A stretch of DNA of 43,460 bases from Bacteroidota bacterium (GTDB lineage: Bacteria; Bacteroidota; Bacteroidia; Chitinophagales; Chitinophagaceae): NCBI GenBank assembly GCA_014190475.1, contig BJGL01000013.1, forward strand, positions 1 to 43,460, in the 5' to 3' direction. The notes beneath the pieces were generated by a model, which had not been told where the DNA came from, did no database searches, and was given only the letters and a program-made list of their open reading frames with translations. The stretch's first letter is position 1, and each line of letters opens with the position of its first letter. Positions 40,303 to 43,460 of the stretch are shown here, one piece after another. The translations under genes were made by a program, and so were the position numbers.

Positions 40303-40362
40303 CTGATTTGTGTCTAGAGCGTAAAGACTTCCATATCCAAATAAAGGGGTAAATTGAGTCCA

Positions 40363-41325
40363 ATGTTCCAAAGGCAAATTCAACTATTCACCTTCTTTGT
40401 TCTACTACTGATCCTGGGATGTACGGAGAAGAAAAAAATTCTGCTTTCCGGCCAAGAGCCCGTTGCCCTTGCTGATTTCATTTCTTTTTTTACTCCCCTT
40501 CCAAGGCCCGTGACACTTGCAGATTCAATCTTAACAAAAAAGTTTCCTGATTCTCTCGCTATCAGCATTCCCATATTGCAGGGTATTTTACCCGACTCTG
40601 TATTGAAGCCATTCACCAGTAAAAAAGAAAAACCACAGTTTCATGCCATTGGTAAAATTGAAGTGCCCGATGCGGAAACGTATGTTTTAATTCATCATAG
40701 TAGCCGCTCTAAGCGGCTGGTCTGGGTTTTGGTATTTGATAAAGAGTCGGTTTTTCAATCTGCTACCTCATTTTTTTATCCCGTGCCGAAAAAGGGAATT
40801 CAACAATCATTACTCATTGATCGGAAATTCTTATTCTCGCTGTTGCAGCTAAGGAAAAATGCGGATGCTACGATGAGTGAGGGAAAAGCGGTTTACGTGT
40901 ACAATGAAGCCGCTAAGCAGTTTACATTAATTATGACGGAGGCGTTGGAGGACAAAGTGGAGGAATTGATTAATCCTATCGATACACTTCCTGCTACCCG
41001 TAAGTATGCTGCCGATTACACGCAAGGAAAAATGAATCTTGTTTCAATTCGAGACGGACGAAAGCAAGATCGATTTACTTTTTTTATTCATTTTGAAAAA
41101 AGAAATGGGGAGTGCACTGGCGAGTTGAAGGGGGAGGCCTTTTGGAAGTCCCCCACAAAGGCTGAATACAGACAGGCCGGCGACCCCTGTGTACTACAGT
41201 TTATTTTTTCCAGCAATGGGGTTCGCTTGCAGGAACAGAATTGTGGATCTCGACGTAATACAGGATGTTTATTTGATGGTTCATTTGTTCGTAAAAAATC
41301 TTCCCGAGTAAAAAAGAAGAGCTAA
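40363..41325 (+). CDS. Lipoprotein of unknown function
   Basis: 320 aa from ATG 40363, giving signal peptide MFQRQIQLFTFFVLLLILGC with lipobox LILGC (Cys20). A TTG three codons upstream is also in frame. The mature part is mixed alpha/beta with no named motif I recognise; a central VDAETYVLIHH-like strand and a C-terminal pair of cysteine-containing segments (GECTGELKGEAFW, then DPCVLQFIF, EQNCGSRRNTGCLFDGSF) stand out. The latter resembles small beta-barrel lipoproteins but the match is not specific. It ends in a lysine-rich tail. The GT35 gene follows after 29 bp. Confidence 0.8.
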   Translation: MFQRQIQLFTFFVLLLILGCTEKKKILLSGQEPVALADFISFFTPLPRPVTLADSILTKKFPDSLAISIPILQGILPDSVLKPFTSKKEKPQFHAIGKIEVPDAETYVLIHHSSRSKRLVWVLVFDKESVFQSATSFFYPVPKKGIQQSLLIDRKFLFSLLQLRKNADATMSEGKAVYVYNEAAKQFTLIMTEALEDKVEELINPIDTLPATRKYAADYTQGKMNLVSIRDGRKQDRFTFFIHFEKRNGECTGELKGEAFWKSPTKAEYRQAGDPCVLQFIFSSNGVRLQEQNCGSRRNTGCLFDGSFVRKKSSRVKKKS

Positions 41326-41354: not shown

Positions 41355-43010
41355 ATGAGTTTTTCTCCTTATAAAGTTCCTTATACCCTTCAAGATCGTT
41401 TCAGTAAAAGCGTGGCCTATTTTTCAATGGAGTTTGCGGTGCATCAGCCATTGAAAATATATAGCGGGGGCTTAGGATTCTTGGCGGGTTCTCACTTGCG
41501 TAGTGCCTATGAATTACAGCAAAACATGATTGGAATTGGCATCCTCTGGAAGTATGGCTACTACGATCAGGCGCGTAATCAGGATCAAACATTAAACGTA
41601 ACCTGGCATGAGAAGGAGTACAGTTTTTTAGAGGATACGGGTATTAAATTTCAGGTCACCATTCATGAACATCCTGTTTGGGTAAAAGCTTTATACCTGA
41701 ATCCAGAAACATTTAAGACGGCTCCTTTATTTCTGTTGACAACTGACCTACCGGAGAATGATTATGTTTCGCAAACTATTACTCACCGGCTTTATGATGC
41801 AAATGTGGCCACCAAGGTTGCCCAATTCATTTTGTTGGGCGTAGGAGGAGCTAAATTAATTGATCTCTTAGGAATGCAGCCGGAGCGCTATCATTTTAAT
41901 GAGGCACATGCAATTTCTGCTGCTTTTTATTTGTATCGAAAATTTGATCAAAATCTGGAAGAAGTAAAAAAGCGTGTTGTATTTACAACGCACACGCCAG
42001 AAGAAGCAGGCAATGAAAAACATGATATTTATCTCTGTTTTCGAATGAGCTATTTCTGCGGCTTATCAGTAGAGGAGGTCAAGTTGTTGATTGGAGACAA
42101 TAGTGACCAATTTAATCACTCATTGGCAGCGCTTCGATTGGCCCGTCTTTCCAATGGGGTTTCAAAATTACACGGCGAAGTATCAAGAAATATGTGGGGG
42201 AAGCAAGAGGGGATTTGTCCTATTATTTCAATTACCAATGCACAGAATTGGCGATACTGGGCGGACAAGCAATTGTATCGCTTTATGGAAGCTGGCGATA
42301 ATTATGGGATGGATGATCGAAAGCACTATTTGAAAAAAAGAGCTTTTGAGATTGTAGCTGATCAAACCGGAAAACTTTTTAATCCTGCTGTATTTACTAT
42401 AGTTTGGGCTCGTCGTTTTGCTGGATACAAACGCGCTGGTTTAATTACCACACACGAGGAGCGGTTTGCCAAATTGATGTCAAATAAGCGTTATCCTGTT
42501 CAATTGATTTGGGCGGGCAAACCTTACCCAATGGATCATCCAGCCATCAGTGAATTCAATCAATTGGTCCATCTTAGTAAGCAACATAAAAACATGGCTG
42601 TATTGATAGGGTACGAACTTACCTTATCCAAACGATTAAAACAGGCGGCTGATTGTTGGCTCAATAATCCTCGCGTTCCCCGGGAAGCGTCAGGAACCAG
42701 TGGAATGACAGCGGCGATGAGTGGAGCCATTAATTTTTCTACTGACGATGGTTGGATCCCAGAGTTTATCAACCACGGGCATAATGGGTTTGTAGTTCCT
42801 AAAGCCGATTATGAAAACATGGCTGTACATGAGCAGGACGAATATGATTTGAATAAACTCTACGATATACTGGAGAACGAAATTCTTCCGCTGTATTACG
42901 ATAATTACGACACCTGGCGGCAGGTAATGAAAAATGGAATGCAAGACGTTCGTTTTGCATTTGACAGCAATCGCATGGCGGAGGAGTATTACAAGCTACT
43001 TTACGCTTGA
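41355..43010 (+). CDS. GT35 alpha-glucan phosphorylase-like protein lacking the PLP lysine
   Basis: 551-aa GT-B protein of the short glycogen/maltodextrin phosphorylase group. N-terminal YFSMEFAVHQPLKIYSGGLG and LAGSHLRSAYEL, HFNEAHA (His180, Glu183), FTTHTPEEAGNEKHD, WARRFAGYKRAG (Arg354, Lys359), WAGKPYPMD (Lys389) and WLNNPRVPREASGTSGM all match. The residue after GTSGM, which in phosphorylases is the lysine that binds pyridoxal phosphate (GTSGMKAALNG), is Thr452 (codon ACA, 42708-42710). The protein is otherwise intact, so it may be a conserved variant: a non-phosphorolytic glycosyltransferase, a regulatory pseudo-enzyme, or an enzyme that holds PLP without a Schiff base. The stop overlaps the ispH stop by 10 bp. 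Confidence 0.85.
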   Translation: MSFSPYKVPYTLQDRFSKSVAYFSMEFAVHQPLKIYSGGLGFLAGSHLRSAYELQQNMIGIGILWKYGYYDQARNQDQTLNVTWHEKEYSFLEDTGIKFQVTIHEHPVWVKALYLNPETFKTAPLFLLTTDLPENDYVSQTITHRLYDANVATKVAQFILLGVGGAKLIDLLGMQPERYHFNEAHAISAAFYLYRKFDQNLEEVKKRVVFTTHTPEEAGNEKHDIYLCFRMSYFCGLSVEEVKLLIGDNSDQFNHSLAALRLARLSNGVSKLHGEVSRNMWGKQEGICPIISITNAQNWRYWADKQLYRFMEAGDNYGMDDRKHYLKKRAFEIVADQTGKLFNPAVFTIVWARRFAGYKRAGLITTHEERFAKLMSNKRYPVQLIWAGKPYPMDHPAISEFNQLVHLSKQHKNMAVLIGYELTLSKRLKQAADCWLNNPRVPREASGTSGMTAAMSGAINFSTDDGWIPEFINHGHNGFVVPKADYENMAVHEQDEYDLNKLYDILENEILPLYYDNYDTWRQVMKNGMQDVRFAFDSNRMAEEYYKLLYA

Positions 43011-43460
43011 TAGTCCGCTAATACGGATTCAAGAGAGGCTGTTCCAGGTACTATAGTTAGTAATCGTTCAATCACTCCCTCTACTAATGCATCCGGGCAG
43101 GAGGCGCCGCTAGTTAATAAAATGCGGAGTGGTCTTTTGCTAGGCAAGAAGTCAGTTGTAACTTTTTCAGCATGTTGATGAAGATCAAAATGCTGAATCG
43201 AAGTATCGTTAAGAATCTTTTGTGCTGTTTCTATATAATACGTGGGTAGCGTAAGCTCGCACAGCTCAACCAAGTGTGAAGTGTTGGAGGAATTGTATCC
43301 GCCCACCACGATTGCCAAGTCTGCTTCATGTTGCAACATTCCTTGCACAGCCGTTTGATTATCTAAGGTGGCATAACAAAGTGTATCACGAGTATCAGCC
43401 ACTTGTTCCTCGCTACCTTCCTTGTCTACAATTGTTTTTTTCAAAAAGTCGGCGATTGCT
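43001..43460 (-). CDS. ispH: 4-hydroxy-3-methylbut-2-enyl diphosphate reductase, C-terminal part (cut by the window edge)
   Basis: Final enzyme of the MEP isoprenoid pathway, a [4Fe-4S] protein. Only the last ~152 residues are in the window; the frame stays open to 43460, so the true start lies beyond it. Visible: DTLCYATLDNQTAV (second cluster cysteine), IVVGGYNSSNTSHLVELCEL (phosphate-binding Ser/Asn), LLTSGASCPDALVEGVIERL (third cluster cysteine, in SGASCP) and VPGTASLESVLADYQA. The NSSNTSHL form points to the longer cyanobacterial/plant-style IspH rather than the ~310-aa E. coli style. Confidence 0.9.
   Translation of the reverse strand, partial: AIADFLKKTIVDKEGSEEQVADTRDTLCYATLDNQTAVQGMLQHEADLAIVVGGYNSSNTSHLVELCELTLPTYYIETAQKILNDTSIQHFDLHQHAEKVTTDFLPSKRPLRILLTSGASCPDALVEGVIERLLTIVPGTASLESVLADYQA

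Follow-up and report, generated by a model that had tools for sequence, protein, structure and literature searches.

In glycogen phosphorylase, the standard example of an enzyme that uses only the phosphate of its PLP, the cofactor is bound to a lysine; a homologue that lacks this lysine raises the question of what such a protein does and whether it does it with PLP at all. The question arises from a stretch of 43,460 nucleotides (hereafter the window; positions 1 to 43,460 of contig BJGL01000013.1, assembly GCA_014190475.1) from a member of the Chitinophagaceae within the Bacteroidota. An open reading frame with an ATG start and 551 open codons encodes a GT35 homologue with threonine at the position of the Schiff-base lysine. 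We call this lysine-less form the T-type, and homologues that have the lysine the lysine-type. The mapped features are as follows.

40354 to 41325, + strand: upstream open reading frame, probable lipoprotein (sequence reading; without Pfam match)
41355 to 43010, + strand: T-type (lysine-less) GT35/TIGR02094 alpha-glucan phosphorylase homologue, 551 aa (open reading frame, TIGR02094, model)
42411 to 42434, + strand: RRFAGYKR, with Arg354 and Lys359 aligned with MalP R535 and K540 (family alignment)
42627 to 42629, + strand: TCC, Ser425 (Ser in 44/44 family rows; Ala in 37/37 lysine-type rows and in MalP and GlgP)
42639 to 42641, + strand: AAA, Lys429 (Lys in 44/44 family rows and in 0/39 others, which have Val, Ile, Thr or Phe there)
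42684 to 42755, + strand: signature EASGTSGMTAAMSGAINFSTDDGW, from Glu444 onward (sequence, family alignment)
42708 to 42710, + strand: ACA, Thr452, at the PLP Schiff-base lysine position (E. coli MalP K646; alignment)
43001 to 43459, - strand: ispH (LYTB), C-terminal part; convergent and truncated where the window ends (open reading frame)

That Thr452 occupies the place of the PLP lysine had been claimed from the sequence alone, and the alignments agree: the residue pairs with the lysine of EASGTSGEKA in the Segatella copri phosphorylase 9l6i (phmmer) and falls on Lys646 of E. coli MalP in the family alignment. PMC11046441 identifies K646 as the lysine that carries PLP in MalP. As judged from the aligned sequence, with Thr452 in place of the Schiff-base lysine of PLP-dependent glucan phosphorylases, the usual PLP Schiff base is impossible in the T-type. 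A search of the open-access literature found no report of a GT35 subfamily without this lysine.

Family and predicted fold

By its sequence and its predicted fold, the T-type protein is a member of TIGR02094 and of GT35. The window protein scores 429.4 bits with TIGR02094 (cut-off 191.7), and three further members (L080, L231 and L244) score 405-424 bits. It also exceeds the cut-off of the Pfam Phosphorylase model (49 bits, cut-off 27) and reaches about 41 bits with TIGR02093, for which the cut-off is 553. An AlphaFold2 model computed on 29 family sequences (pLDDT 89.1, pTM 0.89) has the GT-B fold of glycogen phosphorylase. To judge from their titles, the 50 PDB entries that Foldseek listed are glucan phosphorylases without exception, and the best of those listed is 9l6i (E 4.9e-42, TM 0.86 by query length). 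The Pfam scan of the window protein gave no match to PF05693, the model for GT3 synthase, a search of its genome with the same model at E 0.001 gave none either, and GT4 models stay under their cut-offs (Glyco_trans_1_4 at 21 bits, cut-off 27; Glycos_transf_1 at 20.2, cut-off 26.4).

Conservation of residue 452

To place the threonine in its family, we compared relatives at the level of loci, of aligned proteins and of whole genomes. Among 96 relative loci (L072-L167, a few of which hold the same gene twice), L087 has no gene across the site and was left out; at the other 95, position 452 is Thr in 94 and Ser in 1. The family alignment comprises 44 T-type rows, 30 long and 7 short lysine-type rows and 2 from E. 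coli. It was thinned by removal of T-type rows with at least 82% identity and lysine-type rows with at least 90%; the partial L123 and T-type rows outside 530-660 aa were left out, and the 44 T-type rows include two plasmid members and one identical pair (the window and L001). Scored in this alignment, a check proposed in the sequence-only reading, the residue after GTSGM is Thr in 41 and Ser in 3 of the T-type rows and Lys in all 39 others, namely 37 lysine-type TIGR02094 proteins and E. coli MalP and GlgP. A wider count comes to 166 loci with Thr or Ser and 45 with Lys, in which the same gene is repeated and loci are not independent.

An exact DNA pattern for EASGTSGMTA occurs in 40 of 395 genomes of the phylum, all in the window's class by the tool's grouping, and the reversed pattern, used as a control, has 0 matches in the same 395 genomes. 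G118 and G202, which read GMS and GVT, respectively, both carry the T-type gene as well.

The T-type gene is under strongly purifying selection: between the window gene and three close copies, dN/dS is 0.011-0.016 at a dS of 1.5-1.9, synonymous sites being saturated for the other seven T-type copies compared. With this low ratio and the constancy of Thr or Ser, we therefore conclude that a hydroxyl residue at position 452 is kept under selection. The early view that decay is unlikely, which had been drawn from the 551 uninterrupted codons, is thereby strengthened. A sequencing error or a pseudogene of one genome can be dismissed as the source of Thr452, given Thr or Ser at 95 of 95 relative loci and the exact threonine motif in 40 genomes.

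Two further genomes of the window's genus hold altered copies. In G498 (contig C1, about 319994-320163), two short gene pieces were matched over 34 and 25 residues, and the T-type gene seems to have been lost from this one small genome of the genus. In G506, a 92%-identical copy (L064, C4:19260-20912) carries one in-frame TAG, which marks either a recently formed pseudogene or a mistake in the assembly.

Distribution and origin of the T-type clade

The T-type forms one clade, with a support of 100 and a stem of 1.9-2.0 changes per column, and it was found only in Bacteroidota, other phyla being sampled through plasmid records and E. coli. Together with the motif matches in 40 phylum genomes, this bears out the suggestion, made from the sequence alone, of a subfamily in Bacteroidota. 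Plasmid records with a match number 31, and the 12 that were read divide into 2 Thr-type and 10 lysine-type; plasmid L240 has Lys by alignment, though its motif search gave no match. Of the 594 related stretches from named genomes, the 80 best were retained. When viral contigs were scanned with this alignment of the family, 4 stretches matched, of which 0 were relatives.

In the best tree, the T-type clade branches from within the lysine-type TIGR02094 proteins, a nesting with supports of 86 and 88, and MalP and GlgP form the far group. In a smaller tree of 40 rows it is one of three branches, the other two being groups of long lysine types (support 92), and trees that hold all lysine types together (p-AU 0.107) or the long lysine types together (p-AU 0.189) are not rejected. 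Because lysine is present on both sides of the split between canonical and TIGR02094 proteins, its loss in the T-type is the simplest reading of these sequences, though not a proven one, and a relict origin is possible.

Genomic context

In the window, 29 bases separate the lipoprotein-like frame from the start of the GT35 gene, and a homologue of this frame lies near upstream in 76 of the 96 relative loci; it is likely to be an uncharacterised operon partner. Beyond ispH, many relatives have a GH13 gene; one cluster of such genes is present at 32 of 96 loci, and the one member checked is PF00128. At 21 of 117 loci a GlgX- or GlgB-like match lies no more than about 7 kb away. Scans for promoters and terminators gave fewer sites than shuffles. 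The neighborhood of the gene in the window, made up of the lipoprotein-like frame and ispH, says little on function.

Neighbors from energy metabolism are more telling. Of 117 loci, 3, all from relatives of one family (f3), have phosphoketolase near the T-type gene, and 1 has type II GAPDH; many of these loci have short flanks and some repeat a gene. At L244 (G261), an apparent operon runs on a single strand from acetate kinase through phosphoketolase and the T-type gene to a universal stress protein, the successive gaps being 4, 33 and 137 bases; the acetate kinase scores 371 bits with TIGR00016 (cut-off 293) and the phosphoketolase 1438 bits (cut-off 962). In L245 (G379) the order is phosphoketolase, a 145-codon open reading frame, the T-type gene, then genes for a universal stress protein and for a P-ATPase of the magnesium type. 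In L080 (G080) it is P-ATPase, universal stress protein, phosphoketolase, a BON-like frame and the T-type gene, so that in both a single frame separates phosphoketolase from the T-type gene, all L080 neighbor names except phosphoketolase coming from sequence reading.

Some short lysine-type genes have neighbors of the same kinds. In Criblamydia the order is P-ATPase, phosphoketolase and glgP, and in Indioceanicola the arrangement is type II GAPDH, CBS, glgP and phosphoglucomutase. DUF1622 stands beside lysine-type glgP in Methylophaga and is also a neighbor in Stanieria, and the Thr-type copy of Pontibacter lies behind type II GAPDH and DUF1622. Phosphoketolase is present in 1 of 10 lysine-type plasmid regions, within the stretch read. 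The surroundings of the two types thus appear to be alike and to form a module for stress or fermentation. On a plasmid of Runella rosea (L232, 8944-11079), a gene of the pyridoxamine 5'-phosphate oxidase family begins 30 bases after the Thr-type gene; it possibly encodes only a flavin protein.

At the level of genomes, TIGR02094 is over its cut-off in 262 of the 395 from the phylum. A split two-match signature of the T-type (best E 4e-61 to 3e-71) marks 42 of the 262. A second copy is present in four of these 42 genomes, and a stronger lysine-type match in 0. About 220 other genomes (262 minus 42) pass TIGR02094, and lysine was read at 45 of 45 other-type loci examined, some of them repeated. 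With G395, G467 and G495 added, the T-type genomes number 45, with Thr or Ser confirmed in 45 of 45; profile searches with TIGR02094 and TIGR02093 found a lysine-type GT35 beside the T-type in 0 of the 45.

We set these 45 genomes in a panel of 70 with 5 that have a lysine-type GT35 and 20 listed genomes with no GT35, 41 further ones being left out. Full GlgA is over cut-off in 29/45 T-type, 0/5 lysine-type and 10/20 no-GT35 genomes; the corresponding counts are 12/45, 4/5 and 0/20 for GT3 synthase and 36/45, 1/5 and 13/20 for glgB. A branching-enzyme match at E 1.1e-62 or better is present in all 45 T-type genomes. Other enzymes usually take care of synthesis, since 41 of the 45 have a separate glycogen synthase (GlgA in 29 or GT3 in 12). 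Canonical TIGR02093 is over cut-off in 0 of the 70 panel genomes, and the TIGR02093 matches listed in the 45 T-type genomes all lie in frames of 537-659 aa, the size of the T-type gene. This distribution suggests that the T-type gene goes with glycogen genes and fills the phosphorylase slot.

The window's genome conforms to this arrangement. Next to a full glgA lie glgC and genes for a sugar transporter and a ROK glucokinase, and on another contig a GH13 amylase gene adjoins glgB (names other than glgA and glgB come from sequence reading); a profile search found no other TIGR02094 or TIGR02093 gene there. In one genome of the same genus, glgA, glgB and their neighbors all lie within 11 kb.

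G076, G111, G118 and G194 have a branching-enzyme match, with full GlgA and GT3 both below cut-offs, and the T-type gene may be their sole GT-type glucan-chain enzyme. A GT5 N-terminal fragment, in frames of 258-397 aa, occurs in 70 of 70 panel genomes, beside full GlgA or replacing it, which agrees with a statement in the review PMC11046441 that Bacteroidetes keep a GlgA-GT5 fragment. In G395, G371, G190 and G320, the GT3 synthase matches contain one internal stop.

The cofactor pocket

The T-type shares much of its active site with canonical phosphorylases. In at least 97% of rows, 40 positions are common to the T-type and both E. coli phosphorylases, among them R354, K359, H213, N295, Y420, E444, S446, G447 and T448, several of which in phosphorylases bind phosphate or the terminal glucose. 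The Arg and Lys of RRFAGYKR (R354 and K359, the MalP R535 and K540 counterparts), which we take to be the phosphate site, are thus kept, as are E444, H213 and N295, which we take to be the glucose site.

A further 42 positions are near-fixed in the T-type and rare in lysine-type TIGR02094 rows. Gly419 is invariant in the T-type; 35 of 37 lysine-type rows have Asn, Asp or Glu there, and 2 have Gly. The next residue, Tyr420, just before the EASGT loop, is common to both types and kept in nearly all rows. Ser425 and Lys429, four residues apart, lie inside a predicted helix (422-431) just upstream of the same loop. We assume that residues 420 and 425 have their counterparts in Tyr648 and Ala653 of rabbit phosphorylase, both of which presumably line the PLP ring. 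If Thr or Ser452, Ser425 and Lys429 share a pocket, as their positions suggest, the vacated cofactor site may have been rebuilt around them. The claim in the sequence-only reading that all other active-site landmarks are kept is therefore right for RRFAGYKR but fails for the surroundings of the cofactor, where Ser425 and Lys429 are type-specific. AGKPYP, which it had counted among those landmarks, is typical of the T-type itself, lysine types having mostly AGKAHP.

Neither Ser425 nor Lys429 figured in that first reading, and both bear on its proviso that PLP might be bound through another lysine. Lys429 is a candidate substitute lysine or anion-binding residue. Because it is invariant in the T-type (44 of 44 rows, and never Lys in the 39 others), a serious alternative is that PLP is still used, with the anchoring lysine migrated to position 429 or with PLP held without a Schiff base, and that phosphorolysis is normal. 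The position of Ser425, Ala in every other row, four residues before Lys429 in the predicted helix is consistent with this, as is the retention of Tyr420, and the evidence for the functional slot applies equally. However, a lysine at 429 could equally bind phosphate or nucleotide, and the sample contains no intermediates between lysine loss and gain, only one long stem. On balance we hold a migrated or dispensable anchor to be unlikely, though well worth keeping in view.

Phosphorolysis or glucosyl transfer

We favor the reading that the T-type is a working alpha-1,4-glucan phosphorylase without PLP held by the usual lysine, to which we would assign, from sequence and genome comparisons, a probability of roughly 0.45. 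That it is a phosphorylase of some kind is probable; that it is one which dispenses with PLP entirely is a tentative proposal. Phosphorolysis is favored because of the exclusive occupancy of the slot, the accompanying branching enzyme, the separate synthase, the apparent operon, the conserved sites and the purifying selection. Slot exclusivity is confounded with shared ancestry, and a genome with glycogen genes need not have a GT35, since 13 of the 20 no-GT35 genomes pass the glgB cut-off. The rarity of phosphoketolase and GAPDH neighbors, the single phosphoketolase among 10 lysine-type regions and a profile nearer to GT5 also count against a phosphorylase.

In the mechanism that we propose, glucan and phosphate would bind as in other GT35/TIGR02094 members, whose residues for this are conserved, and glucose 1-phosphate would be released from an alpha-1,4-glucan (glycogen). 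PLP would be absent, and a bound phosphate or the substrate phosphate would carry out proton transfer in a front-face retaining mechanism of the kind proposed for GT4 trehalose phosphorylase. The fungal GT4 trehalose phosphorylase is not known to use PLP. A review considers it likely that the phosphorylases of GT4 and those of GT35 both act by the front-face route, in which inorganic phosphate donates the proton (PMC8950772). Taken together, the proposal for both families and the PLP-free precedent make such a route chemically reasonable. In the proposed stress or fermentation module, stored glucan would be converted by way of glucose 1-phosphate to acetyl phosphate, acetate and ATP.

The sequence-only reading had offered three functions: a different glycosyl transfer, a glycogen-binding regulator, or use of free phosphate in place of PLP. 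The last, as phosphorolysis without lysine-bound PLP, has gained from the absence of lysine-type GT35 in the 45 T-type genomes and from the three phosphoketolase loci; a regulator has become less likely. Transfer from NDP-glucose retains some likelihood, with the genome evidence favoring phosphorolysis.

As an NDP-glucose-dependent alpha-glucan glucosyltransferase, the T-type would build glucan, and its PLP pocket would be (again) a nucleotide pocket. Gly419 and Ser425 match the GT5 pattern GY....LS, and the T-type profile is nearer to GT5 than are those of the lysine types: HHalign against GT5 gives E 1.6e-5 for the T-type and 1.6e-4, 1.6e-3 and 0.01 for lysine-type sets, although the sets differ in depth and part of this closeness may be technical. 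With TIGR02095 (GT5 glycogen synthase), 3 of 4 T-type members scanned score 34-42 bits and three lysine types 29, none and none; yet the window protein, at 40.9 bits, is far below the cut-off of 328.45. EX7E is a pattern of GT4 enzymes, and at its second Glu the T-type has Thr or Ser, not Glu. The four genomes with a branching enzyme and neither full GlgA nor GT3 over cut-offs accord with glucan synthesis, but the other 41 of the 45 are already supplied with GlgA or GT3, and the operon context, where present, is catabolic (acetate kinase, phosphoketolase). A synthetic role would also echo a proposal, set out in PMC11046441, that GT35 arose from an NDP-sugar enzyme, with PLP replacing a nucleoside monophosphate in a proto-GT35. 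We judge such a role to be improbable.

It is a still more doubtful possibility that the T-type clade is a missing link from nucleotide-sugar glycosyltransferases to PLP phosphorylases, its cofactor pocket binding nucleotide either by reversal to, or as a relict of, the proposed proto-GT35. If it were so, one residue set would show PLP replacing nucleoside monophosphate.

A catalytically dead protein that binds glycogen or regulates its metabolism is quite improbable. The loss of a lysine found in every other row could point that way, as could the small gene pieces in G498 and the copy with an in-frame stop in G506, both in the window's genus. However, the gene is under purifying selection, stands in one relative in an apparent operon with energy-yielding enzymes, and has no other GT35 found in its genome to regulate; a pure regulator is less likely also because the phosphate- and sugar-site residues are conserved.

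If the T-type is a phosphorylase without lysine-anchored PLP, as we prefer to think, it would represent an old, widespread natural subfamily without the PLP lysine in what is apparently the same metabolic slot. It offers a direct test of the need for PLP and of a PLP-free GT-B glucan phosphorylase, and it bears on the relation of GT35 to nucleotide-sugar enzymes. The two plasmid-borne Thr-type members are annotated glgP, alpha-glucan family phosphorylase, and metabolic models built on the glgP name would assume PLP dependence.

Comparison with known systems

Among characterized relatives, the E. coli enzymes MalP and GlgP, canonical members of GT35, share with the T-type the 40 near-invariant positions, but the PLP lysine is theirs only. 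Fungal GT4 trehalose phosphorylase is likewise a retaining phosphorylase of a glycosyltransferase family, although of another family and with another substrate. GlgA of GT5, which has the GT-B fold, shares with the T-type the GY....LS pattern before the active-site loop; the T-type nevertheless falls far below the GT5 family cut-off, and the window's genome has a separate full GlgA.

The best match by both sequence and fold is the Segatella copri glycogen phosphorylase 9l6i, a TIGR02094-like lysine type that is 28% identical to the window protein, longer (852 aa) and equipped with Lys at the PLP position. Short lysine-type TIGR02094 proteins of 560-564 aa, from Indioceanicola, Criblamydia, Simkania and Microvirga plasmids, match the same model at a similar length. 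They read EASGTSGMKA, whereas the T-type has Thr or Ser in place of that lysine, together with its changed residues at 425 and 429.
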